64,000 bases of DNA from a virus, in IMG/VR virus record IMGVR_UViG_3300005098_000013, positions 1 through 64,000 of that record; one strand, written 5' to 3'. Below are positions 5,455 to 35,525 of the stretch, piece after piece (position 1 is the first letter of the stretch; every line of letters begins with the position of its first letter). Made by a program: the position numbers and the translations under genes. The notes below the pieces were generated by a model. The model had not been told where the DNA came from. It was given only the letters and a program-made list of their open reading frames with translations, and made no database searches.

Positions 5455-5922
5455 ATGAAATATTTGTTAAGACTCGAATCTCAAGGCAGAAGAACTGAAA
5501 AATACAGAAGAGAATCATGTGCATTGCCTAACAGCTGGAGAATGATTGTGGATGCTGCAAATGAAAAAGAAGCGTTGCAAAAAGCATTTAGTAAAGGAGA
5601 ACCCAACCCGTTTGAGTTTAAGAATGATGAGAAGTTTAATATTGAAGTTGCAGAAATGTCAGGCTACGGACACCACGGAGATATAAGAATTTTCGATGTT
5701 TTAGTAGACATTCGGTGGGGTGATCGTTTCTGGATGCACGCGTTTACTGTTGAGATGACAAAAATGGAAAACATACCAGTTGTGGATAGGATAGAAGGAG
5801 GATGCAATGTTGCTGTGTTTAAGGAATATGATAGAGAAGCAGCAAAGAAAGCGGATGAAAGATCCGAAAAGATATTGAAAGAGGCAACAAAAGGAACAGA
5901 TGGTTGGATGATAGTAGAGTAG
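5455..5922 (+). CDS. Hypothetical protein (155 aa)
   Basis: Ribosome site GGGGTG before the ATG. It looks like a folded alpha/beta protein with many aromatic residues (RWGDRFWMHAFTVE) and a helical C-terminus rich in Lys and Ala. No family recognised. Confidence 0.65.
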   Translation: MKYLLRLESQGRRTEKYRRESCALPNSWRMIVDAANEKEALQKAFSKGEPNPFEFKNDEKFNIEVAEMSGYGHHGDIRIFDVLVDIRWGDRFWMHAFTVEMTKMENIPVVDRIEGGCNVAVFKEYDREAAKKADERSEKILKEATKGTDGWMIVE

Positions 5923-6770: not shown

Positions 6771-6787
6771 TTGTATAGATGAAGAAC

Positions 6788-6818
6788 ATTAGAAGCACCT
6801 CAGAGTAGGACTTCTAAT
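6788..6818 (+). ncRNA. Anti-SD-loop hairpin, copy 1
   Basis: Stem ATTAGAAG (6788-6795) with CTTCTAAT (6811-6818) around the loop CACCTCAGAGTAGGA. The A and T of the next gene's ATG (6817) form the end of the stem, and the loop's AGGA lies at ribosome-site distance, so folding could control the start directly. One of four copies with the same loop and different stems. Confidence 0.75.
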
Positions 6819-7017
6819 GTATCAGCCAAGAAAAAAGACTGTAGGAGAAGAGAATATGGAAGAAGGTAGTTTTGTATTTTATAAAGAAGTAATGGAAGTA
6901 GTTCGGAAACACAGAGAAGAGATTGGCAAGTCGATGGAAGAACCTTTGGATGATGAAGAGTTAGAGATGGTCTTAGATAAAGGAAAGGAGATAAGAAAGA
7001 GAAATGGAAAAGAATAG
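6817..7017 (+). CDS. Hypothetical protein (66 aa)
   Basis: The start codon is embedded in the 3' arm of the hairpin at 6788-6818. The protein is a charged helical peptide (VFYKEVMEVVRKHREEI). The 3' end overlaps the next gene. Unknown function. Confidence 0.6.
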   Translation: MYQPRKKTVGEENMEEGSFVFYKEVMEVVRKHREEIGKSMEEPLDDEELEMVLDKGKEIRKRNGKE

Positions 7018-7702
7018 GATAAGTATGCAAGTAAGCATACCGGAAGAGTTAATAGAGGAGTTCGGCGGCATATACGAAGTATTGAACAAAGGAGTAGACA
7101 AAAGATACAATGATTTGGATTGCGAGTTTGAAGAATGTGTGTTGTGCAGCTTGTCTCAGTTTGCAGACACAATATACGAAGAAGAAGGGCAAGAAGATAG
7201 ATTGAAGAAAATAGCAAAAGCGTACGGTTGTTCAGAAGACGTAATTCTGAAAGCAGGATATTTGACTGGCATAGGAAACAAGTGGTGGAATGTTGAGTTC
7301 GAATGTGATGTGAGAGATTTGCATATTGACCCGGATCAGTTTGATGATTCGGTAAGTTGCTGTGGTTTTTATGTAAAGAAGGTTAAACCGGAATGGATCA
7401 CAGCTGCTTTCTTAATTGAATGGAACGATGAGGAGAGGCTAGTTTTGCACAACGAAATAATAATTGGTGAAGAAGTAAGAATGAAACGGATGAAGAAAGG
7501 GGTGAAGTCAACAATGAACTGCAAAGGTGTTTGGGATGAAATACGGAGGATAAAAGCAAAAGGGGTTGATACTAGCAAATTGGAAGAAGAGTTCGATCGT
7601 TTTGAACAAGGATGGGTGGAACACGTTGTAGATTGGCACAGCGCAGATACTTTATGGAGAGACGAGGAAAAAGTAGCGGCTGCTACAATAGGAAACAAAT
7701 GA
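7004..7702 (+). CDS. Hypothetical protein (232 aa)
   Basis: One of the longest products in the early region. The start may be the ATG at 7004, overlapping the previous gene, or the one at 7025, which has AGGATA upstream. It has an acidic, Cys-containing N-terminal half (CEFEECVLCSL) and a helical C-terminus. No family recognised. Confidence 0.65.
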   Translation: MEKNRISMQVSIPEELIEEFGGIYEVLNKGVDKRYNDLDCEFEECVLCSLSQFADTIYEEEGQEDRLKKIAKAYGCSEDVILKAGYLTGIGNKWWNVEFECDVRDLHIDPDQFDDSVSCCGFYVKKVKPEWITAAFLIEWNDEERLVLHNEIIIGEEVRMKRMKKGVKSTMNCKGVWDEIRRIKAKGVDTSKLEEEFDRFEQGWVEHVVDWHSADTLWRDEEKVAAATIGNK

Positions 7703-7863
7703 TGATGGACATGTGTGACGTTTGTGGAGAAGTGTTTGATGCGAATAAAGAAGGAGTGGTGCTTGAAAGAGAAGGAAAAAGAGTTGCCTATTGTGAAAAG
7801 CATATGGAAGAAGGCTTTGCAGAAGTGCTTAGAGAAATAGGTTTTGAAGTAAAGAAGCTTTAG
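7699..7863 (+). CDS. Small zinc-finger protein (54 aa)
   Basis: CDVCGE near residue 6 and YCEKHMEEG near residue 36 give a CxxC...CxxH zinc-binding pattern. ATGA overlap with the previous gene at 7699. A longer in-frame start at 7612 would lie within the previous gene and is rejected. One of several small zinc-type proteins in this region. Confidence 0.7.
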   Translation: MMMDMCDVCGEVFDANKEGVVLEREGKRVAYCEKHMEEGFAEVLREIGFEVKKL

Positions 7864-7876
7864 GAGGTGAGAAGAA

Positions 7877-8125
7877 ATGGAAAAGAAAAAAGCAAGTGAA
7901 TTGGAAGATCAAGAAGTCGGAGCAGGTTATGTATACTGGAGTAGTATGTACGAAGACCTACTGGAGATGGTTGTAGAGTACCTTGGTGAAGTTGAACACG
8001 CCGGAATAAAACCTAGCGCTGGTGAAGTATCATCAAGTGTAGTTGAAGACGTAGGAGAGTTTGTAGATACCAGAAAGAGGATGCTCAGAAAGGATTTTTT
8101 AGAGTATTGGAACGAAAACGTTTGA
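7877..8125 (+). CDS. Hypothetical protein (82 aa)
   Basis: Strong GGAGGTGAG site. Acidic, helical protein; no recognised motif. The second conserved hairpin follows its stop. Confidence 0.6.
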   Translation: MEKKKASELEDQEVGAGYVYWSSMYEDLLEMVVEYLGEVEHAGIKPSAGEVSSSVVEDVGEFVDTRKRMLRKDFLEYWNENV

Positions 8126-8145
8126 GGTCTCCGAAAAGCAAGGCG

Positions 8146-8178
8146 CTGCTAAAGCACCTCAGAGTAGGACTTTAGCAG
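8146..8178 (+). ncRNA. Anti-SD-loop hairpin, copy 2
   Basis: Nine-bp stem CTGCTAAAG (8146-8154) and CTTTAGCAG (8170-8178) around the loop CACCTCAGAGTAGGA. The loop's CACCTC is exactly complementary to GAGGTG in the ribosome site of the next gene (8182-8188), only a few bases downstream. Confidence 0.8.
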
Positions 8179-8196
8179 AATGGAGGTGAGAAAAGA

Positions 8197-8454
8197 ATGA
8201 AAGAAGATAAGGAGAGAATGGAAGAAGACAGAAATTTTTTTGAGAGGATAGAGGAATATAGAGAAGACGAAAAGCCAACTGAAGAGGAGATTAGAACAAC
8301 GGAAAAGGTTCTGAAGTATGCAGCGCAATGCAATTACATAGGTTTCAGTACAGAAGATGCGATAGATGTAATGCAAAGAAGCACAAATATTCTCAAGTGG
8401 AATTTTGGATACTGGGGGAAAAAGAAGAATGATAGGGGGAAACAGAGAAGTTGA
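8197..8454 (+). CDS. Hypothetical protein (85 aa)
   Basis: Ribosome site GGAGGTG at 8182-8188, which could pair with the loop of the hairpin just upstream. The protein is charged and helical with a basic tail (KKKNDRGKQRS). Unknown function. Confidence 0.6.
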   Translation: MKEDKERMEEDRNFFERIEEYREDEKPTEEEIRTTEKVLKYAAQCNYIGFSTEDAIDVMQRSTNILKWNFGYWGKKKNDRGKQRS

Positions 8455-8576
8455 TGTATGACTTTCTGAAATGGTTAGCTGAGGAAAGTCACAAAGAACT
8501 TGAAAGAAGGAGCGAAGAATTAGGAGGTGTAATTGGAAGAAATGAAAAACGAAAGAACAATAGAGGTGCCGTATAG
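8454..8576 (+). CDS. Small hypothetical protein (40 aa)
   Basis: ATG overlaps the previous stop by one base (8454). One helix (FLKWLAEESHKELERRSEEL) and a basic tail. It overlaps the next gene in another frame, so one of the two may be less real. Confidence 0.4.
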   Translation: MYDFLKWLAEESHKELERRSEELGGVIGRNEKRKNNRGAV

Positions 8577-8676
8577 TGAAGCAGGCAGTTTGGAAGAGGC
8601 AGTGTGGAGATTAAGAGTACATGATGGAGAAGGTTGGTTCGATGCGGATAAGCAAGTGATGGTATTGGTAGAGTAG
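8542..8676 (+). CDS. Small hypothetical protein (44 aa)
   Basis: Good TTAGGAGGTG site upstream of the ATG at 8542. The sequence (SLEEAVWRLRVHDGEGWFDADKQVMVLVE) looks like a small folded domain. No family recognised. Confidence 0.55.
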   Translation: MKNERTIEVPYSEAGSLEEAVWRLRVHDGEGWFDADKQVMVLVE

Positions 8677-8688
8677 AGGTGAGAAAAT

Positions 8689-8877
8689 ATGAAAGAAGAA
8701 GAGTTAGAGATAGTGTATAAAGCAATAGAGGCACATGGAGACAGCTTTTGGAATGACCCTAGCGAAGGCAATGAGAAGGACGGAAACTGGAATGGATATT
8801 TGTTCGAAGAGATTCTGGATATGTTAGAGAAGGACGGCTATGAACTAAAGTTAGTAAAGAAGCACGAAAGAAAATAG
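8689..8877 (+). CDS. Hypothetical protein (62 aa)
   Basis: GAGGTGAG site. Acidic helical protein with Trp residues (SFWNDPSEGNEKDGNWNGYLFEEIL). Unknown. Confidence 0.6.
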   Translation: MKEEELEIVYKAIEAHGDSFWNDPSEGNEKDGNWNGYLFEEILDMLEKDGYELKLVKKHERK

Positions 8878-8891
8878 AAAAAAAAAAGAAG

Positions 8892-9074
8892 ATGAGGCAC
8901 GAAGAAATAGAATTGAAGGTGCTTGTTAAGGTGCACATAGATGATTCGAACGAAGGTGAATTCGAAGACATAACTGATGAGTTTACCTTTTTTGAAGGGA
9001 TAGCAATAGCTTATCTTGTGCGGCAAGCCTTAACGAGAGATAAAATGGAAAATGAAAGACTATGGGAAACATAA
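8892..9074 (+). CDS. Hypothetical protein (60 aa)
   Basis: A/G-rich leader with a weak ribosome site. A beta-rich start (EIELKVLVKVHIDD) and a helical second half. Unknown. Confidence 0.5.
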   Translation: MRHEEIELKVLVKVHIDDSNEGEFEDITDEFTFFEGIAIAYLVRQALTRDKMENERLWET

Positions 9075-9099
9075 AAAAAAATTAGGAGGAGAACAGATT

Positions 9100-9261
9100 A
9101 TGATAGAAATAATAATAGCGGTTGGGATTCCGCTGTTTCTATTCGGAATGCTAATAGGACTGGCAATTGGACAACATAGTGTATGGAAAGGTTTGAGAAG
9201 GGATAGAGAGGTAGTAATAGACAATTGGAAATATACAGCTGATCTAATAGAGAAGGAGTGA
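9100..9261 (+). CDS. Small membrane protein (53 aa)
   Basis: Start at the ATG preceded by TTAGGAGGAG; an upstream in-frame start at 9052 lies in the preceding gene. Residues 2-24 (IEIIIAVGIPLFLFGMLIGLAIG) form one clear membrane segment, followed by a charged tail expected on the cytoplasmic side. Confidence 0.65.
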   Translation: MIEIIIAVGIPLFLFGMLIGLAIGQHSVWKGLRRDREVVIDNWKYTADLIEKE

Positions 9262-9266
9262 AGACT

Positions 9267-9461
9267 ATGGGAAAAATAAGAGGAAACGGATTGAGCGTTG
9301 CTTTGGAAGCGAAAAGGCTAGGTAAAGTGCTTGAACTGACAGAAGTTGAGACGTTAGGTGAAGGCGTAGTTGATGAGCTAAGAGAGCTGGAAAGCACAAT
9401 TGATGCAGTAGTGCAAAGCTGGTATAGGTTAAGAGAAGAGGAACTTTGCAGGGAAGCATAG
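9267..9461 (+). CDS. Hypothetical protein (64 aa)
   Basis: An ATG at 9267, or a GTG at 9258 overlapping the previous stop; AGAAGGAG lies upstream of both. Helical, leucine-rich, possibly coiled-coil (LRELESTIDAVVQSWYRLREEEL). Unknown. Confidence 0.5.
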   Translation: MGKIRGNGLSVALEAKRLGKVLELTEVETLGEGVVDELRELESTIDAVVQSWYRLREEELCREA

Positions 9462-9473
9462 TGGAGAAGGTAA

Positions 9474-9529
9474 CTGTCAGAACACCTCAGAGAAGGATTC
9501 TGACAGCATTGCTTCCACTTAAAGGAAGC
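9474..9529 (+). ncRNA. Anti-SD-loop hairpin, copy 3, plus second hairpin
   Basis: Stem CTGTCAGAA (9474-9482) and TTCTGACAG (9498-9506) around the loop CACCTCAGAGAAGGA. A second hairpin GCTTCC/GGAAGC (9511-9529) follows, and then the AGGAGG ribosome site (9541) of the gene at 9553. Copy 4 has the same two-hairpin layout. Confidence 0.8.
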
Positions 9530-9552
9530 ATAAAGAAACTAGGAGGAAAGAA

Positions 9553-9738
9553 ATGGAAAAACTAAAGTGTGATAGATGCGGAACAGAATATAGTGACAAG
9601 GAGAGTATAGCAAGTGCAAAGGCACACGAAGAAGAATGGAAAAAGTTGTGCAGAAAAGATGGAGTAGAGCCAAGAGGCTTAGCACCGTGCCCGAACATAA
9701 CGTGCAGAGGAGAATTGCAATTGATAGAAGAGGCTTAG
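9553..9738 (+). CDS. Small zinc-ribbon-like protein (61 aa)
   Basis: CDRCG near residue 6 and the CPNITCRGELQ region near residue 46 give two Cys pairs, a zinc-ribbon pattern. AGGAGG at 9541-9546, downstream of the double hairpin. Unknown role, possibly nucleic-acid binding. Confidence 0.65.
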   Translation: MEKLKCDRCGTEYSDKESIASAKAHEEEWKKLCRKDGVEPRGLAPCPNITCRGELQLIEEA

Positions 9739-9743
9739 GGAAA

Positions 9744-9929
9744 ATGGCAAGAGTTAGAATAGAAAACAAAAAGGAAGCGTACCAGGAAAAAGCAGAAGAG
9801 ATTGCACAGAGAAGGTATAGAAAGCGATTTGGAGAGTTGAGTGGTATACAGAAGGATGTAGTATATATGATGGCAGTAAAGTTGGTAAGAGAAGCAGAAG
9901 CTTTAGGAGGAAAGAAAAAGAATGAGTGA
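9744..9929 (+). CDS. Small basic helical protein (61 aa)
   Basis: The ATG at 9744, six bases after the previous stop, is preferred over an internal overlapping start at 9636. Rich in Arg, Lys and Glu with an AEEIAQRRYRKRFGEL helix. The stop overlaps the next ATG. Confidence 0.5.
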   Translation: MARVRIENKKEAYQEKAEEIAQRRYRKRFGELSGIQKDVVYMMAVKLVREAEALGGKKKNE

Positions 9930-10386
9930 AGAGGAAGAAGTGAAGGTGCCAAGTCTTGATGAGTTGGATGCTTTGGCAACCGAACTACATGAGAAATATA
10001 AGGTGTATGTTCGTTTGGAAAAAGCATTTTATGCATATGATGAACCAAACATGAAATTAGTGGCAATGTTAGAAGGAGATAATAAATCAGGAAAGGAGAT
10101 CAAGGAAAAGGTAGAGAAGTTCTTTGGAGTAAAGCTAAAAGCGAAAAAGGAAGTGCTGGCAGAAGGAATGATAGAATTCAGCTACGAATCACCTAAGCTT
10201 TCGGTGAGACTAGATAAAGCAATGACATGTGAAAAGGTTGGCACAGAGACGAAGGAAGTTGAGTATAAGGTAGAGATAAGCCCCGGTAAGGAGCCAGTAA
10301 TGGAAACAAGAAAGAAAATGGTAGAGGTGCCGGTGTATAAGTGCACAGAAGCTGATATAGAGTTCAGAGGAGAGCCTGAGGAATGA
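9922..10386 (+). CDS. Hypothetical protein (154 aa)
   Basis: Ribosome site TTAGGAGG inside the end of the previous gene. The N-terminal helical part is followed by beta-rich, charged sequence. Its stop overlaps the next start. No family recognised. Confidence 0.65.
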   Translation: MSEEEEVKVPSLDELDALATELHEKYKVYVRLEKAFYAYDEPNMKLVAMLEGDNKSGKEIKEKVEKFFGVKLKAKKEVLAEGMIEFSYESPKLSVRLDKAMTCEKVGTETKEVEYKVEISPGKEPVMETRKKMVEVPVYKCTEADIEFRGEPEE

Positions 10387-10598
10387 GTACAGATTTGTAT
10401 GAAAGGAACGGTGTTTGCCTAACGAGATATTGGGGCGGAGAAGAGAAAGGAGTGTGCTACCAGTTGACTTTGGAAGGAAAGAATGAGATTTTGTTTGAAG
10501 GAGAACAGGTTGTATATAAGCAGTTTACAGCAAAGGAAATTAGGCAACTGGTCAATGGCTTGTCAAATATATTAAAAGAAACTGACAGCTGGGACTAG
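10383..10598 (+). CDS. Hypothetical protein, related to the N-terminus of the 12461 gene
   Basis: A 71-aa product. The order YERNGVCLTRY, then KGVCYQLTLE, then YKQFTAKEIRQLVNGL matches YDKNGIRIDRY, then AGVCYQLNME, then QRSFTTEEMKELVADL in the gene at 12461. The two are therefore paralogues; this one lacks the second domain. Function unknown. Confidence 0.65.
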   Translation: MSTDLYERNGVCLTRYWGGEEKGVCYQLTLEGKNEILFEGEQVVYKQFTAKEIRQLVNGLSNILKETDSWD

Positions 10599-10610
10599 AG
10601 GTGATGAAGT

Positions 10611-10832
10611 ATGTGTATAGATGTAGAGTTTGTAAAAGGTTTGTTGAAGCATATGATCGACAAGCTGGACGATGCAAAGTTGACGGTTGCTGAAGGAGAG
10701 TCATTGATGATCATAGAACAACAGCTAGGTGAAGCAGTGAAAACGTATGAGTTACTAAGAGAACATATGAAAGGTGCGTATACTAGCGAAGGAGAAGTTG
10801 ATTGGGATGCGTTAGTGCATAGTTTGCTTTAG
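10611..10832 (+). CDS. Hypothetical protein (73 aa)
   Basis: AGAGGTG site. A two-helix acidic protein (KGLLKHMIDKLDDAKLTV, MIIEQQLGEAVKTYELLREHM). Unknown. Confidence 0.6.
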   Translation: MCIDVEFVKGLLKHMIDKLDDAKLTVAEGESLMIIEQQLGEAVKTYELLREHMKGAYTSEGEVDWDALVHSLL

Positions 10833-10847
10833 GGGGTGAGGAAAGAA

Positions 10848-10997
10848 ATGGGCTTAGGAGCAGAAAGGTATCTGAGATATGCAGACGCAATAGCAGAAAT
10901 GGTGATAGAGAACGGAGTGAACGAAGACAATGAAATAGTAGTAGAATTGATGAATGCAATAGACGTGCTAAGAAAAGAGACGAAGGTACCTGTATAG
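10848..10997 (+). CDS. Small hypothetical protein (49 aa)
   Basis: AGGGGGTGAGG site just before the ATG at 10848. A helical acidic peptide. It precedes the fourth conserved hairpin. Confidence 0.55.
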   Translation: MGLGAERYLRYADAIAEMVIENGVNEDNEIVVELMNAIDVLRKETKVPV

Positions 10998-11007
10998 TAT
11001 AGAAGTG

Positions 11008-11059
11008 TGCAGAGAACACCTCGGAGAAGGATTCTCTGCATATGCCTCAAAAGCTGAGG
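11008..11059 (+). ncRNA. Anti-SD-loop hairpin, copy 4, plus second hairpin
   Basis: Stem TGCAGAGAA (11008-11016) and TTCTCTGCA (11032-11040) around the loop CACCTCGGAGAAGGA, one base different from copy 3. A second hairpin CCTCA/TGAGG (11045-11059) follows, and then the AGGAGG site (11063) of the gene at 11074. Confidence 0.8.
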
Positions 11060-11073
11060 TTTAGGAGGGAAAA

Positions 11074-11298
11074 ATGGAAGAAGAAATGAATGAGTTGGAT
11101 GTGGAAGCAAAGGAACAGATCAGTAACCTCATGGAAGCTATTGAACATGTAGAAAGCAAAGAAGAGCAGACGCGGACTGCACTGACAGTTAGTACAGTGC
11201 TTGTAGCAAGATTTGCTGGCAGTTTGTATGCAGCTATAGGAGCATGCGAAGCTATAAAGAAAGCACTAATGGAACTTGGAAAAGAATTATATAAGTAA
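11074..11298 (+). CDS. Hypothetical helical protein (74 aa)
   Basis: The leader has the double hairpin and an AGGAGG site. All-helical, with an alanine-rich hydrophobic middle (TVLVARFAGSLYAAIGACEAI) that could be a membrane segment or a buried helix. Unknown. Confidence 0.6.
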   Translation: MEEEMNELDVEAKEQISNLMEAIEHVESKEEQTRTALTVSTVLVARFAGSLYAAIGACEAIKKALMELGKELYK

Positions 11299-20470: not shown

Positions 20471-21214
20471 TCATTCCTGTTTCTTATTAGCCTCGTACCA
20501 TTCTTTTGCTCTTTTCCATTCCTCTGCAGTCAAGGCTGGATCCGGGAAACCTGTTTCGCAGAAGCCTTTCACTCGATTCCAACAGCTATCGCACCTTAGA
20601 CATGGCCGTTCAGCACCCTCGTAGCAACTCCAGCTCAGCTCAAAAGGTGCATTGGCTTTCCAACCTAACAATATTATATCTGCCTTGCTTAAGTTTCCCA
20701 GATGATGTATTCTTAGGTCATGTTTGCCTCTTGCCCATCTTTCACCGCCCATTGTTATAGCTTGTTGCATCTTCACTAAATATTCCGGTCTGCAATCGCA
20801 ATAATTTGAGTAGTCCACCACGTTGGTCGCGATGAAGACGTTATCGGCTCCAATCGACTCGGCTAAGCCTGCAGCTATACTCAAGAACATAGTATTCCTC
20901 AGTGGCACATATGTAACTGCTGCTTCATCGTCTCCTAACTCCTTATGTTCCGGAATCTCATCGGTTAAGAGAGCACTCTTAAAGAGTTGCTTCACGAACT
21001 TTAGCTCTGCAAATCTCCACTTGATTCCTAACTTGAATGCTATCTTCCTTGCTGCCTCTACTTCCTTCACATGCTTTTGTCCGTACCCAAATGTCAAAGC
21101 TGTTACCTCATATCCTTTCTTTACTGCAGTTGCTGTAAGTGCACAAGAATCCAAGCCACCGCTTAACAAGCACACAGCTTTCTTATTTGGCATATGTCTT
21201 ACATTCTTTTTCAT
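20471..21214 (-). CDS. queC: 7-cyano-7-deazaguanine (preQ0) synthase QueC
   Basis: A 247-aa product, normal family length. SGGLDS at residues 18-23 is the PP-loop ATP-binding motif; the later FGYGQKH and VPLRNTMFLSIAAG are QueC signatures; the C-terminal Cys cluster CYEGAERPCLRCDSC binds zinc. The enzyme converts 7-carboxy-7-deazaguanine to preQ0 using ATP and ammonia. Strong TTAGGAGGTGAG site. It lies 20 bp downstream of the MptA/FolE2 homologue on the same strand and completes the preQ0 route with queD and queE. Confidence 0.93.
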   Translation of the reverse strand: MKKNVRHMPNKKAVCLLSGGLDSCALTATAVKKGYEVTALTFGYGQKHVKEVEAARKIAFKLGIKWRFAELKFVKQLFKSALLTDEIPEHKELGDDEAAVTYVPLRNTMFLSIAAGLAESIGADNVFIATNVVDYSNYCDCRPEYLVKMQQAITMGGERWARGKHDLRIHHLGNLSKADIILLGWKANAPFELSWSCYEGAERPCLRCDSCWNRVKGFCETGFPDPALTAEEWKRAKEWYEANKKQE

Positions 21215-21234
21215 TCTTTTCTCACCTCCTAAAC

Positions 21235-22026
21235 TTATAGTTTTCCTTCGAACATACTATAAGCATCAAATGGGTGTATGCTTTCTTGCGAATCACATTC
21301 CACCTTGCACCAATGAACGTCTAACTCCTTTAATTGTTCAACAGCATCTCTCACTACATCTTCTACAAACTTGGTGTTTTCATGCATATACTCCACCGCC
21401 CTCTTTTCGTCTGGCCTTTTCAATATGTTATAGACAGGCGAAGAGAATGACTTATGCGCAATTTCCACCAACTCTTCTGCGCTAACTTCTACCAACTCAG
21501 TTAGAACCTCTACTTCAATCCTTAATGTGCAGCGTTGATTATGAGCAACTCCATTTTTGCACATTTCCCTGGCACAAGGGCAGCAGGTTGCTCCAATCAC
21601 TTCTACACCTAAAGTTGGCTTCTCTCCTGACTTTGCATAACCTAGAAGCTTGTATACCTCACCTTTTGCCTCTCTTTCTGCCCACAATTCCACTTCAGCA
21701 AACTCACAATACTCACTTCTTCTCTTAATATCATCAGCAATGCTCCTTGCTAACCATTCAATGCCTCTCGTTTCCTTTGGAAACACCAAATTCTCTTCCA
21801 TTGCCTGTACCAAACGAGATAAGTGAGCGCCTCTTTGATCTTTCGGCAAACTCAGATACAAATTTGCATTGATTATCACTTCCCTGTCTGATTCTGGCCG
21901 ATGTATGATTATCGGCATCCTTACCCCTTTCAAACCCACTCTATTCAATGCTACACTCTCTACTACTTCATTCTGGACATCTCGTTTTCCTACCATACTG
22001 CTTTGGTCTTCACCTCTCTTATACAT
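21235..22026 (-). CDS. GTP cyclohydrolase, MptA/FolE2 family
   Basis: A 263-aa product. DVQN, then VALNRVGLKGVRMPI, KDQRGAHLSRLVQAMEE, the CPCAREMCKNGVAHNQRC metal/substrate region and SSPVYNILKRPDEKRAVEYMHEN match the COG1469 family (archaeal MptA, bacterial FolE2). These enzymes open GTP as the first step to pterins and to preQ0. The start at 22026 is chosen for its GGAAGGAGGAG site; a start at 22062 would add 12 residues. Whether it makes the open or the cyclic-phosphate product cannot be told from sequence. Confidence 0.88.
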   Translation of the reverse strand: MYKRGEDQSSMVGKRDVQNEVVESVALNRVGLKGVRMPIIIHRPESDREVIINANLYLSLPKDQRGAHLSRLVQAMEENLVFPKETRGIEWLARSIADDIKRRSEYCEFAEVELWAEREAKGEVYKLLGYAKSGEKPTLGVEVIGATCCPCAREMCKNGVAHNQRCTLRIEVEVLTELVEVSAEELVEIAHKSFSSPVYNILKRPDEKRAVEYMHENTKFVEDVVRDAVEQLKELDVHWCKVECDSQESIHPFDAYSMFEGKL

Positions 22027-22075
22027 TCTTATTTCTCCTCCTTCCATCTGCTTCTTTTTCATGCCAAACTTTTCC

Positions 22076-23623
22076 TTATCCTATTAAACAAACCTTACCT
22101 TCTTCCCTCTTGATTCTCTTCTGCTTCACTAGCCTCCCTATAAGCTCCTCAGACTTTCCATATTGCAAACCAAAGTCAAGCAGCTCATCTTTCAATTCAA
22201 TCTCTCCCATTTCACCTGCTTCCAAAATTCTGACCACCTGCTGCTCTTCTGCACCTCTCGAAATCTGAGTTCTCCATTCCTTTGCAACATTCATAAGCTT
22301 CTGGAGTTCAGGTGTAATGTCTACCTTCAAAACCGAACCAAAATTAGTTGTTGCAATGGTATAGCCAATCCCAAGCCTCTCAAACAACGGCTCAATATAA
22401 TGCGGCACTTTCAGCGTATCAATGCTTTTCATAAACTCATCAGTAAACTTTACACTTCTTAGTTCATCGATTCTTTTCATGACATCTGTTACATCCCAGC
22501 CTATCTTCTTTAGCATTCCTATATCCCCTCTTACTCCTTTGCTGTTCCTCCTACACCACTTTAACTTTTCCTTTTCTGCAACTGACGGAATAAAGTTCAC
22601 AAAGAAAAACCTACGTCCTAATCCAGAGGACAAGTCAAACCTTGTTGGTTGGCTTGCTGCAAACAATGTGATATCAGTGTCGTAGCGTATCTCTCCCGCA
22701 GCTAGCCTCTTTACCAAATGCCCCGAATCCAAAGCTGTAAGCAATGCATTGTCCAGATTGGAGGAATGTTCTTGCTTCATTGCCGTTGTCAACGCCGAAA
22801 ACTCCTCTATCCCCACGATGTAATCTGCATAATCATGCGCGGCTCCGTACGTAATTATTGGCTCGCCGCTATCATCTGTAGCCCTAATTGTCCCGGTAAA
22901 GCCTGCCTCAGTTAAGTTGCCGCTATAGGTTGTCTTTAACTCCGTGCCTCCTAGCGCGCTTGTTGGCCCACTTAGCAACACTTTCAAGATGAATGATTTG
23001 GAATTATGCACTACCAGATTGTTTGCAATGTAGTGTTCCTGAGAAGTTGTGAAGTCAACAGCAGGTCCTTGGCGATACATCTTTGTTCTTTTCGTAACAT
23101 GTGCTGTTGTATAGCCGAGATACATTGGTTTTTTCTTCCATGTCTGAGATTCATGAACCTTCAGTTCATTAGGTGTAAAGGCAGTCACTATCTGGTCCTT
23201 TAGCGTAAGATCTTTAGCATGTTTCCATCCATTTTTGGTTAAAACCCGATGTTGTCCCGAACATTTTAGGCCATGCGGCAGTTCATAATAGTCTACATTA
23301 CTGCGCGTCTTATTCAGAACTATATTTGGCTTGCCATTGATTGATGCTAACCTGTCTCCTACTCGAACGTCTACTGCAGCTTTGTGAATTCCACTTTCCA
23401 TAAGAACAGTTGTAGTTGGAGCAACGCAAAAACCTGGTGGCGCAATGAAGAACATATGTATTCTTAAGTCTGGCACAGCTCCTGCTTCCATGTAAAACTG
23501 ATTCTTCTTGTTTGCCAAATTTGCCAAGTGACAACACACAGCAGTAACATAGTACGGAACGAACGTTTTGACAAAACAAATTTTCCGTGACTCGAGAAAC
23601 TCAAGTACGCTCTGCATTAACAT
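22076..23623 (-). CDS. AAA+ ATPase with mini-intein in its P-loop, possible replicative helicase
   Basis: A 515-aa precursor; after intein removal 373 aa. The host protein's Walker A is split: IAPPGF before and SKSFIL after the intein join as PPGFSKS. Walker B-like GIEEFSAL, sensor 1 (ITLFAASQP) and the arginine-finger region (SSGLGRRFFFVNF) follow, and the C-terminus (EELIGRLVKQKRIKREEGKV) looks like a winged helix. The layout resembles MCM-type or other AAA+ replication ATPases, but the exact family is not certain. The neighbouring ERCC4 nuclease on the same strand supports a role in DNA metabolism. Confidence 0.75.
   Translation of the reverse strand: MLMQSVLEFLESRKICFVKTFVPYYVTAVCCHLANLANKKNQFYMEAGAVPDLRIHMFFIAPPGFCVAPTTTVLMESGIHKAAVDVRVGDRLASINGKPNIVLNKTRSNVDYYELPHGLKCSGQHRVLTKNGWKHAKDLTLKDQIVTAFTPNELKVHESQTWKKKPMYLGYTTAHVTKRTKMYRQGPAVDFTTSQEHYIANNLVVHNSKSFILKVLLSGPTSALGGTELKTTYSGNLTEAGFTGTIRATDDSGEPIITYGAAHDYADYIVGIEEFSALTTAMKQEHSSNLDNALLTALDSGHLVKRLAAGEIRYDTDITLFAASQPTRFDLSSGLGRRFFFVNFIPSVAEKEKLKWCRRNSKGVRGDIGMLKKIGWDVTDVMKRIDELRSVKFTDEFMKSIDTLKVPHYIEPLFERLGIGYTIATTNFGSVLKVDITPELQKLMNVAKEWRTQISRGAEEQQVVRILEAGEMGEIELKDELLDFGLQYGKSEELIGRLVKQKRIKREEGKVCLIG
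23003..23428 (-). mobile_element. Mini-intein (142 aa) in the AAA+ P-loop
   Basis: Residues 66-207 of the ATPase. It starts with Cys (CVAPTTTVL, block A), has a block B-like GLKCSGQHRVLT, and ends with the block F/G sequence FTTSQEHYIANNLVVHN, followed by Ser as the +1 extein residue. There is no LAGLIDADG or other endonuclease domain, so it can splice but not home by itself. The insertion site is the ATP-binding loop. Confidence 0.9.
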
Positions 23624-26640: not shown

Positions 26641-28527
26641 ATGGGTTGGGATAAGATAAGCGGAAAAAAGGACCAGAAGAGCCCAGAAGAGAAGGATAAG
26701 GAAATAGGAAGTTGGATTACTGCACAACAGAAGATTGAGGTGTCGCCGATTAACTTGGTGGTGTACGGTTTAGATGGTACTTGTAAGAGCAGCGCTTGTA
26801 TAGATATCAGAGAAGCCAACGAGATGGATAAGAAGGTGTTTGTAATTGACATAGACGGATCTGCAGCTCCTATTAAGGAAGCATATTGGAATAATGATGG
26901 GAATATAATGATAGTGGATCCAGTGGAGATAACGGTAGAAGGTGACATTGATTGGATTGCTTCATATAATAGAATTTTAGATACTTGCAAGTGGCTACGC
27001 AAGCATGAGGTTGAGTTGAATCTAAAAGGTGTGGTATTAGATGGCCTAGACACTCTGCTTAAAATATGTGTGGCAGGAGACACTACTATTTATCCGATGG
27101 GTTTGCCGCCAATGAAAATTTCGGAATATGTTGAAACTGGAATGACTGTTCCAATTATGACAAGAAGCGGATATGAAACACCTTTGCGAACTTTTAAGTT
27201 GAAATCCCAATTAATAAAAATAGGCTATGCTTCAGGAGATGAGATTTGTGTAACACCGGACCATCCGTTGCTTGGTACTAGGGAATATTGGAGCAAACTT
27301 GAATTTATACCAGCTTCTGAATTGCAAATCGGTATGAGGTTAGCGGAAATCATGTATGGCCCACAATTTCCATGCTATGGTTATTCTGCAGCAAAGGCAA
27401 AATTTATAGGTATGATGGTTGCGGAAGGGTCAATGACACGCCACTATTCGCCCAAAATTTCAAATAATAAAATTGAACCTGTAGAATTAGCGCTTAAAGA
27501 AGCTTTCCCAGAATGTTATCTTAAACGAGATAGCAAAAATCAATATTCAATTAACTATAGAAAAAACAAAGATGACAAACATAGAAAAAACCCGATGAGA
27601 ACAGAATTGGAACAATTGAAACTTTGGAATTCATATAGCCATACTAAATTTATCCCTGATGTTATAAAATACGGTCCAATTGAGACAATATCTGCTTTTT
27701 TTGACGGATATATTTTTGGTGACGGGTGGCAAACCAAAACAAAAACCGGAAAAAGAATAGGTATGTATACAGTTTCAAAGCAGCTTGCAGAAGACTTAAG
27801 GTTTATTTTATGGAGGCTTGGCAAAAGAACAACTTTATATGTAAACAGATATCACAATGAAGTGGGAAGCAATAAGATGTTTAGCGATTATCAAGCGAGA
27901 ATTGGATACGGTATTAGTGTTGATGAACCGGAAATTGCAAATGTCAAAGGTGACGTACGTCTTAAACCCATAAAAACAATTGAAAGGCTGTCTGGTCTAC
28001 ATGATGTATATGACCTTCAAATGCCATCTGGTAATTTCATAGCAAACAGAATTGTAAATCACAATTGCGAGTACAAAATGAAGGTAGAAGATCTCAAGGT
28101 TAACCCTGCAGCAAGAGTGACCGATTTGTGGTCGTGGCAATTTCGCAACTCTGCTTTCCTTTTGGTAGTGAAGCTCATTAAAGGTCTTAAGTGTGATAGG
28201 CTTTATACGACGCACTTAAAGGAATTGAAAGGATGGGTACAAGAGTCAAAAGGCAAAACTCTAGCCACTACTGGATATGTGCCAGAATATGAAAAATCAA
28301 CGCCAAACTTAATGTTCCAAAAATTAAGTGCAACAAGAAATGATAAGGGAAAAGTTGTGGAGTGGAAGGTAAAGGTTGAAAAGAGCAAGACTAACAGTGC
28401 GCTTGAAGGCAAAGAGTATGAAGTGCTTAGGGTGGATCATGCTAAGGATGAGGTTAGTTGGCATGGCATTAAGGAATTTTTGAGGGAATGCAGACATAAA
28501 GAGGCAGGAAGAAATGAGAGGGTGTAA
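26641..28527 (+). CDS. RecA-superfamily (Sak4-like) ATPase with LAGLIDADG intein
   Basis: A 628-aa precursor; 295 aa after splicing. Walker A is VYGLDGTCKSS (residues 42-51, G-L-D-G-T-C-K-S), and Walker B is VVLDGLDTL just before the intein. Small RecA-like ATPases of this kind in tailed phages (Sak4, AAA_24) help single-strand annealing and recombination. The C-terminal extein (TDLWSWQFRN, then RLYTTHLKELKGWV) fits. The DNA polymerase lies 2 kb downstream. Confidence 0.8.
   Translation: MGWDKISGKKDQKSPEEKDKEIGSWITAQQKIEVSPINLVVYGLDGTCKSSACIDIREANEMDKKVFVIDIDGSAAPIKEAYWNNDGNIMIVDPVEITVEGDIDWIASYNRILDTCKWLRKHEVELNLKGVVLDGLDTLLKICVAGDTTIYPMGLPPMKISEYVETGMTVPIMTRSGYETPLRTFKLKSQLIKIGYASGDEICVTPDHPLLGTREYWSKLEFIPASELQIGMRLAEIMYGPQFPCYGYSAAKAKFIGMMVAEGSMTRHYSPKISNNKIEPVELALKEAFPECYLKRDSKNQYSINYRKNKDDKHRKNPMRTELEQLKLWNSYSHTKFIPDVIKYGPIETISAFFDGYIFGDGWQTKTKTGKRIGMYTVSKQLAEDLRFILWRLGKRTTLYVNRYHNEVGSNKMFSDYQARIGYGISVDEPEIANVKGDVRLKPIKTIERLSGLHDVYDLQMPSGNFIANRIVNHNCEYKMKVEDLKVNPAARVTDLWSWQFRNSAFLLVVKLIKGLKCDRLYTTHLKELKGWVQESKGKTLATTGYVPEYEKSTPNLMFQKLSATRNDKGKVVEWKVKVEKSKTNSALEGKEYEVLRVDHAKDEVSWHGIKEFLRECRHKEAGRNERV
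27067..28065 (+). mobile_element. Intein (333 aa) with LAGLIDADG homing endonuclease
   Basis: Starts with Cys (CVAGDTTIYP) and ends NFIANRIVNHN, followed by Cys as the +1 extein residue. The two endonuclease helices are visible as FIGMMVAEGSM and FFDGYIFGDGW, each with the acidic residue needed for DNA cleavage; block B is EICVTPDHPLL. It sits directly after Walker B, a common intein site. Expected to splice itself out and to home into uninfected alleles. Confidence 0.92.
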
Positions 28528-34324: not shown

Positions 34325-34705
34325 ATGGGAAAGGATAGGTTTTCTATAAGAAGGGAATTAGGGATTGCAATAGCACACAAATTACCTTGGCACTCAGGTA
34401 GATGTTCGAATATGCACGGTCACGGTCTAAAAATTGCAGTAACACTAAGCAGAAAAGATGGTGGCTTAGATGAGAATGATATTGTATATGATCTAGGCTA
34501 TCTAAAGGAAGCGTTAGATGAAATTGACGAAAGGTTAGATCACACATATCTGAACGATACTTTAGAGAATCCGACATCGGAGAATGTAGCAAAATATGTT
34601 AGAGATAAGGTAATGCAATATCTTGAAAAGAGAAAAGCCGGTGTAAAGGTGACAAAAGTAGAAGTGGAAGAGAGTCCAGGTTCAGGAGTGATACTAGAAT
34701 GCTAA
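34325..34705 (+). CDS. queD: 6-carboxy-5,6,7,8-tetrahydropterin synthase QueD
   Basis: A 126-aa product. Zinc ligands H18 (AHKL), H31 and H33 (MHGHG), catalytic C27 in GRCSNMHGH, DLGYLKEAL, LDHTYLN, PTSENVAKYV and VEESPGSGVI are the family signature. Converts dihydroneopterin triphosphate to 6-carboxytetrahydropterin, the second step of preQ0 synthesis. Two bases after the Cas4-like gene and 180 bp from queE. Confidence 0.92.
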   Translation: MGKDRFSIRRELGIAIAHKLPWHSGRCSNMHGHGLKIAVTLSRKDGGLDENDIVYDLGYLKEALDEIDERLDHTYLNDTLENPTSENVAKYVRDKVMQYLEKRKAGVKVTKVEVEESPGSGVILEC

Positions 34706-34848
34706 GCAAAGAAGAATTAGATAAAATACAGAAAGTTATGGAAGAAGTTGAAAGCGATCCAGAAGTGGCAAGAAAAGCAGAAGAAGACCAAAGGAGATAT
34801 GGTACATTATCTGCGGAAGATTTAATGATAGTTTTAGCGTATAGATAA
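34699..34848 (+). CDS. Small hypothetical protein (49 aa)
   Basis: Overlaps the queD stop. An acidic helical peptide (DKIQKVMEEVESDPEVARKA). Unknown. Confidence 0.5.
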   Translation: MLSKEELDKIQKVMEEVESDPEVARKAEEDQRRYGTLSAEDLMIVLAYR

Positions 34849-34886
34849 AATTAATGATAAAGCTTTAGTGTGGGTAGGTAAACAAA

Positions 34887-35525
34887 ATGTTGGAAATTAA
34901 TGAAATCTTCGAATCGATACAAGGAGAAGGTCTTTTAACAGGAAAGCCATTTACGTTTATAAGATTGCAAGGTTGCAACCTGAGATGTAGTCACTGTGAT
35001 ACGAAGAAGGCATGGAAGAAAGGAGAAGGTGTAATGATGAGTGAAGAAGAGATAGCGGCAAAAGTAGAGGAGTTTGGACATCAGTGGGTTGAAATTACTG
35101 GAGGCAATCCATTGCTGCAAAACTTACAACCATTACTAGTGAAGCTTCGCTATACTAAAGAAGGCAAATTGAACAACCGAAGAATAGAATTACAAGCAGA
35201 CTGTAGCCTGAATCCTATGCAATACGCCCTAATTTCAAGAGTTTCGCTGAGCCCTAAGTTAAGTTCAAGCGGCATGACTAAATACATGCACTATGAGTAC
35301 ATGTACTGGTTGAATCCTGGTGATGAGGTTAAGTTTGTCGTAAGCAATGCGGATGATTTTAACGAAGCAATTAGGTTGCTTCAGGAATACCCGACCAAGG
35401 CACAAGTGGTGATGCAGCCAGTTCATGGCAAAAACGGCAAGTGGATTGTAGAAAAGGTTTTAGATGAACATATAGAAAACGTTAGAGTATTGCCACAAGT
35501 TCATAAGGTGTTCGGACTAAGATGA
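34887..35525 (+). CDS. queE: 7-carboxy-7-deazaguanine synthase QueE
   Basis: A 212-aa product. FESIQGEG, then GCNLRCSHCDT with the radical-SAM cysteines C30, C34 and C37, and EITGGNPLL (the GGE-like motif) are typical of QueE. It rearranges 6-carboxytetrahydropterin to 7-carboxy-7-deazaguanine, the substrate of QueC. It depends on an Fe-S cluster and SAM. Start ATG after a purine-poor leader; the stop overlaps the next gene. Confidence 0.92.
   Translation: MLEINEIFESIQGEGLLTGKPFTFIRLQGCNLRCSHCDTKKAWKKGEGVMMSEEEIAAKVEEFGHQWVEITGGNPLLQNLQPLLVKLRYTKEGKLNNRRIELQADCSLNPMQYALISRVSLSPKLSSSGMTKYMHYEYMYWLNPGDEVKFVVSNADDFNEAIRLLQEYPTKAQVVMQPVHGKNGKWIVEKVLDEHIENVRVLPQVHKVFGLR

Follow-up and report, generated by a model that had tools for sequence, protein, structure and literature searches.

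The viral DNA analysed here, a window of 64,000 nt (positions 1-64,000 of the record IMGVR_UViG_3300005098_000013, which holds 78,081 bases in full), carries four copies of a short hairpin that is a structured RNA acting in cis, and the same hairpin is found in many other viruses, mostly T7-like cyanophages, which have it in the leader of their major capsid gene. It is composed of a 9-10 bp stem of free sequence and the cap CACCTC-NNN-G-N-(A/C)-GGA. In our leading but still tentative interpretation, it is an element of mRNA leaders in tailed viruses, transferable and cis-acting, which works on the message of the downstream gene.

Conserved cap and covarying stem

The four window copies have exact or near-exact matches in the loop and wholly different stems, whose flanks are Watson-Crick paired without mismatch (Table 1). 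An initial annotation of this DNA had described them in these terms, and they are indeed present and the only such sites in the window: the window has 4 occurrences of the pattern CACCTCNNNGHMGGA, where shuffles predict 0.01, and of its 63,964 positions just 4, namely the four copies, have a 15-nt loop with 9 or more closing Watson-Crick pairs. A covariance model found no fifth copy across the whole 78,081-base record. In RNA folding, all four copies form a stem of 9-12 bp with a CA/A internal loop, CCU/AGG pairs and a hexaloop, and thus RNAfold predicts for each of them the pairing of CCT with AGG inside the loop that the annotation had proposed. In the hexaloop CNNNG-N the C and the G are invariant and the three bases between them vary; by analogy, the invariant C6 and G10 suggest a cross-loop pair as in the hexaloop of the iron-responsive element.

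The element operates at the RNA level, since all ten stem pairs covary, as had been argued from the four copies. Compensatory double-sided changes are seen at every pair among 66 non-identical copies, with 93.3% of cells paired compared with 63.6% after shuffling and at most 60.5% with the partner slid (covariation 0.942 vs 0.320), a pairing percentage that is inflated by the pre-selection of copies for pairing at 8 of 10 positions before alignment. The same holds for 16 copies from non-capsid contexts, where again all ten pairs covary (95.0% vs 48.1% paired, covariation score 1.267 vs 0.278). The pre-selection does not affect the bimodal split in pairing seen before any filter, nor the set of loci selected by their capsid protein. 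The stem has a defined length, with pairing falling sharply from 84% at pair 10 to 8% at pair 11.

Ten loop positions are invariant across the 66 copies, which is partly owing to the search pattern chosen. The natural consensus, taken from the capsid-protein-selected set, reads CACCTC, three variable bases, G, usually T, A/C and GGA, with CACCTCAGAGTCGGA as the most frequent form; loops of 16 nt in one contig pair and 14 nt in one copy (L377) are the exceptions in length. The 3' half, GNMGGA, is as invariant as CACCTC. Past the stem lies a 3-nt linker, and the U two bases beyond the stem is nearly invariant in the 66-copy alignment; the linker varies in the actinobacterial-type copies.

The conserved loop raises the question of ribosomal RNA mimicry. 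The loop could copy positions 2497-2511 of 23S rRNA (rrlA numbering) in the peptidyl transferase centre, CACCUC-GAU-GUCGGC, and so engage a factor normally bound there. Within the rRNAs of E. coli and both tRNAs of that operon, the 23S stretch CACCUCGAUGUCGGC is the best match to the loop profile (8.9 vs -0.9 bits for the next), and this site is nearly universal across bacteria and archaea. The resemblance was, however, noticed only in hindsight, simulated rRNA sets score as high in 3.9% of cases, and the 23S segment forms no local hairpin; we regard mimicry as the least probable of the explanations considered.

Spread among viruses and position in their genomes

Scanning viral contigs with CACCTCAGAGWAGGA gave at least 120 matches, and those listed fall into two clear groups, one with near-perfectly paired flanks and one of almost unpaired chance matches. 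Control words paired on average at 3.7 of 10 positions, and 1 of 138 reached 8. Matches of the loop inside reading frames, the flanks of which pair at about 3-4 of 10 positions, were likewise discarded as chance. A further scan for the C variant and for closing pairs other than G returned 94 stretches, 88 of which pair at 7-10 of 10 positions. After removal of near-duplicates there are about 140 distinct sites (142 listed, of which a few, e.g., L225, are probably chance). Further copies thus exist in other viruses, and the initial annotation, which had named their absence from relatives as a refutation, withstands this check. When 80 capsid loci were fetched by their protein alone, with the motif unused, the hairpin was found in about 41 of the 76 that had enough upstream sequence. 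Among GenBank isolates, the cyanophages SS120-1, 7B11-B, NATL2A-133, DSL-LC07, P-SSP10, S-RIP2 and S-CBP4 have one true copy each, always before the capsid gene. The hairpin was not found in T7, Pelagibacter phage HTVC201P, the P-SSP7-like P-SCSP1h, HK022, HRTV-27, S-CBS4 and two large cyanophages.

Among the carriers unrelated to these phages, one virus has four copies nearly in tandem (L024/L365), and in one contig the hairpin precedes small genes (L030). A T7-like phage has two copies, both ahead of genes other than capsid (L119/L339). The hairpin is also present in high-GC viruses that encode a DUF2637 protein (L340, L364) and in probable cyanobacterial viruses, where the HIP1 word GCGATCGC makes up the stems (L416, L446, L426). 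No protein common to five unrelated carrier groups (G000, G002, G004, G005 and G006/G007) was detected by BLAST, which very small or highly diverged proteins could escape, and a viral protein as ligand, which had been suggested for the window copies, is accordingly unlikely. For the actinobacterial-type and the tandem-copy viruses, BLAST found no relatives with a name. In L024, low-complexity stretches of repeated GGCANGGC-like words separate the four near-tandem hairpins (1240-1660), and the gene directly before the array presumably resembles an ASCH-domain protein.

The hairpin is co-oriented with and upstream of its gene, consistently so and including the seven named phages, at a distance from the start codon of usually 108-175 nt in T7-like capsid genes and 17-70 nt in other genes. 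It is intercistronic, often starting 1-19 nt past the upstream stop codon, and in 56 of 132 cases its start is at most 15 nt from an upstream frame of at least 60 aa. What precedes the element in capsid leaders varies (scaffold, endolysin, psbA region, small ORFs), but the gene that follows is invariably capsid, which indicates that the element belongs to the leader of the downstream message. Other roles tried for it were rejected: a repeated phage promoter within the leader of the capsid gene (no genome has the conserved GACGGTGGGANAGACCAC block more than once), an intrinsic terminator (most stems lack a following T run), a transcription-factor operator (conservation is in the loop and not in the arms) and a stimulator of programmed frameshifting or readthrough (spacing to the upstream stop is 1-19 nt and beyond, and the upstream gene is inconstant).

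These positions bear on the translational switch proposed in the initial annotation, in which CACCTC in the loop would sequester the downstream ribosome site until a viral ligand releases it. CACCTC is complementary to GAGGTG, which copy 2 has 13 nt past the loop, and copies 3 and 4 have GGAGG; the loop word does occur at the 3' end of 16S rRNA, as had been pointed out, but it is merely a 6-mer. Against the switch, of 91 other leaders just 1 has GAGGTG within 250 nt downstream, and among the window copies copy 2 alone has it. Ribosome sites rich in GAGGTG or AGGAGG are common window-wide (28 and 39 copies). Moreover, the equal conservation of the 3' half of the loop, the usual distance to the capsid start codon and the failure to find a viral protein common to the carriers do not fit it, and we consider such a switch highly improbable.

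The intercistronic placement beside stop codons would suit a site of RNA cleavage or processing, by a host endonuclease that recognises the apical motif or by the RNA itself, that gives downstream messages a defined end. The fixed stem length, the 3-nt linker with its nearly invariant U and the virus with four near-tandem copies point the same way. The linker is, however, not invariant in the actinobacterial-type copies, no Rfam ribozyme family matches, and the structure downstream varies by virus group, so that no common catalytic core is seen beyond the hairpin. Cleavage is therefore rather unlikely. A small-molecule aptamer, i.e., a riboswitch, would agree with the conserved internal loop, the variable stems and the location in leaders, but with only about 12 conserved nucleotides in a single hairpin, no common expression platform and downstream genes that share nothing metabolic, it is improbable.

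Capsid leaders of T7-like cyanophages also contain a second, larger, conserved and covarying RNA domain after the hairpin, which has no counterpart at the window copies. It was aligned from L118 (395-445) and equivalents in about 35 capsid leaders (alignment A4), with the consensus GGCW...GCCC-UACG-GGAYACC...WGCC followed by GUGG-GAUAGA-CCAC, and a stretch resembling it is also present in capsid leaders without the hairpin, e.g., L329 and L299. In several T7-like contigs, the hairpin and the capsid gene are separated by a small frame whose start (AGLFEGEG) is LAGLIDADG-like. It is at about 5551-5856 on the minus strand in L389, with a weak Pfam LAGLIDADG_1 match (E 0.0025), and just past the hairpin in L438, L439, L450 and L471; judging from these frames, the capsid leader may have been invaded by a homing endonuclease gene. 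In several marine phage contigs, glutamine-II riboswitches are located near the hairpin (L026 634-690, L013 2317-2371, L063 3777-3831, L096 2522-2576).

The RNA signal is apparently undescribed so far. No Rfam 15 family scored above the gathering threshold in the window, 16 loci gave only glutamine-II riboswitches and one tRNA at other positions, and a capsid leader searched at relaxed threshold gave only antisense matches at chance level; no known ribozyme family matched the element in any of the three. Neither the loop sequence nor a cyanophage capsid-leader RNA was found in the open literature. Among the cellular genomes sampled, from groups other than cyanobacteria, no convincing copy proper to the cell turned up. 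A scan of a genome collection with GCACCTCAGAGWAGGAC, i.e., the A12 loop variant only, gave 17 matches, of which 1 is properly paired; it is on a marine contig binned with a Dehalococcoidia genome, which is probably phage DNA because it carries a phage-type leader. A covariance search of 295 genomes of one archaeal phylum and 396 of one actinobacterial phylum, a weak one as it had no positive control, returned nothing convincing, and weak model matches in two actinobacterial genomes, one of them inside a reading frame, were judged to be chance.

The window copies and the virus that carries them

The genes that follow the four window copies are short and have no Pfam match or none that is significant (Table 1). 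According to the initial annotation, the start codon after copy 1 is part of the stem; the ATG at 6817 does lie in the stem, but the in-frame ATG at 6856 is the better start, with AGGAG 8 nt upstream. The second hairpins that it noted after copies 3 and 4 are both present, and on the copy 4 stretch RNAfold favours a related, slightly different pairing.

Table 1. Hairpins and following genes in the window (all on the plus strand)
Feature	Position	Strand	Details
Copy 1 P1 hairpin	6786..6820	+	10 bp; loop 6796-6810, CACCTCAGAGTAGGA; covariance model 47.5 bits
Gene after copy 1	6856..7017	+	53 aa from ATG 6856; AGGAG 6843-6847; longer ORF from 6817; no Pfam match
Copy 2 P1 hairpin	8146..8178	+	9 bp; loop 8155-8169, CACCTCAGAGTAGGA; covariance model 43.9 bits
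Gene after copy 2	8197..8454	+	85 aa; ribosome site GGAGGTGA at 8182; no significant Pfam match
Copy 3 P1 hairpin	9474..9506	+	9 bp; loop 9483-9497, CACCTCAGAGAAGGA; covariance model 43.1 bits
Copy 3 hairpin II	9510..9530	+	TGCTTCC / GGAAGCA, after CAT linker; in MFE (minimum free energy) and centroid structures; leader z -3.9
Gene after copy 3	9553..9738	+	61 aa; ribosome site AGGAGG at 9541; no significant Pfam match
Copy 4 P1 hairpin	11008..11040	+	9 bp (12 with wobbles); loop 11017-11031, CACCTCGGAGAAGGA; covariance model 41.9 bits
Copy 4 possible hairpin II	11045..11059	+	CCTCA-AAAGC-TGAGG; read directly from the sequence
Gene after copy 4	11074..11298	+	74 aa; ribosome site AGGAGG at 11063; no significant Pfam match

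The window virus is plausibly an archaeal tailed virus, which a weak Orc1/Cdc6 winged-helix match, an ERCC4 nuclease, an ATP-dependent ligase domain and a 7-deazaguanine pathway fit without being proof. Its polymerase B is closest to those of haloviruses (about 24% identity) and its terminase to that of a cyanophage (28% identity). No related loci were found in viral contigs via the DNA polymerase B. Genes of the 7-deazaguanine pathway (FolE2, QueC, PTPS, radical SAM) at 20471-22062 on the minus strand and 34325-35525 on the plus strand point to synthesis of a 7-deazaguanine base by the virus, possibly for use in its own DNA. Two frames bear inteins, 26641-28527 (plus) and 22076-23623 (minus), one with a full splicing and LAGLIDADG match and one under the curated cut-off.

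Possible action and comparison with known RNA elements

We hypothesize that the hairpin is transcribed within the leader of the downstream message, where a host factor shared by widely differing hosts could recognise its apical motif, or the element could act through its own compact fold; either is favoured because the unrelated carriers have no viral protein in common. The hairpin would thereby determine how much protein the downstream gene yields, most probably in that it stabilises or punctuates the polycistronic message or helps ribosomes to load, and we slightly prefer the version based on message stability. Several points weigh against this interpretation. A simple stabilising hairpin needs no set of about 12 invariant loop bases, so that a specific partner must be assumed. 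The closeness to upstream stop codons may merely reflect the compactness of these genomes. Finally, T7, a Pelagibacter phage, a P-SSP7-like cyanophage and a haloviral relative lack the element, which is thus not a general requirement for capsid expression. More doubtful is the wider proposal that the hairpin represents a new RNA class, a portable viral gene-expression module for bacterial and archaeal hosts alike, which passes between unrelated viruses with no partner protein carried along and hence acts through a universal cell component (the ribosome, the decay or the transcription machinery) or through its own fold.

With the element, the capsid message of cyanophages abundant in marine and fresh waters has a defined RNA signal that can be tested, and the same signal is present in unrelated viruses, one of them probably archaeal. 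Should the hairpin be read by a host factor that these hosts share, viruses would have a general handle for raising or timing the expression of individual genes; should it act by its own fold, it would be a new minimal functional RNA. The seven sequenced cyanophage isolates permit direct experiments.

The put RNAs of phage HK022, which consist of two hairpins in about 70 nt, need no dedicated protein for their action (PMC9378689). The viral hairpin resembles them as a phage cis-acting leader RNA with hairpins and no need for a dedicated viral protein, and it could in principle also be an antiterminator of this type, bound by the polymerase and acting on the elongation complex that made it. A second hairpin after the short linker occurs in copies 3 and 4 and in many phage copies, including capsid leaders; many copies, however, have no obvious second hairpin, among them copy 2 and, by eye, L446 and L462. 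The genomic position differs too, with copies deep in operons beside the capsid gene and not near early promoters, and in T7-like phages the phage's single-subunit polymerase probably accounts for most transcription of the capsid gene. In the HK022 genome, the model matched only an 11-nt fragment on the minus strand inside a head gene. A role of the put type is therefore quite unlikely.

The manA, wcaG and PhotoRC motifs are likewise structured leader RNAs of cyanophages and marine metagenomes (PMC2864571), from which the element is set apart in that it matches no Rfam 15 family. With the operators of the coat proteins of MS2-type RNA phages it shares a short viral hairpin, few invariant unpaired bases and a free stem; unlike in those phages, unrelated carriers have the hairpin in common but no protein, and its partner is therefore unlikely to be a viral coat protein. 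The iron-responsive element differs in having a single C five pairs below the loop, where the viral hairpin has the bulge CA/A 3 bp under it, and control by iron-regulatory proteins is a eukaryotic system; common descent is not proposed. What the two have in common is a free stem, an apical CNNNGN hexaloop with a probable cross-loop C-G pair and an unpaired base, an unpaired bulge below it, and a place in the mRNA leader.

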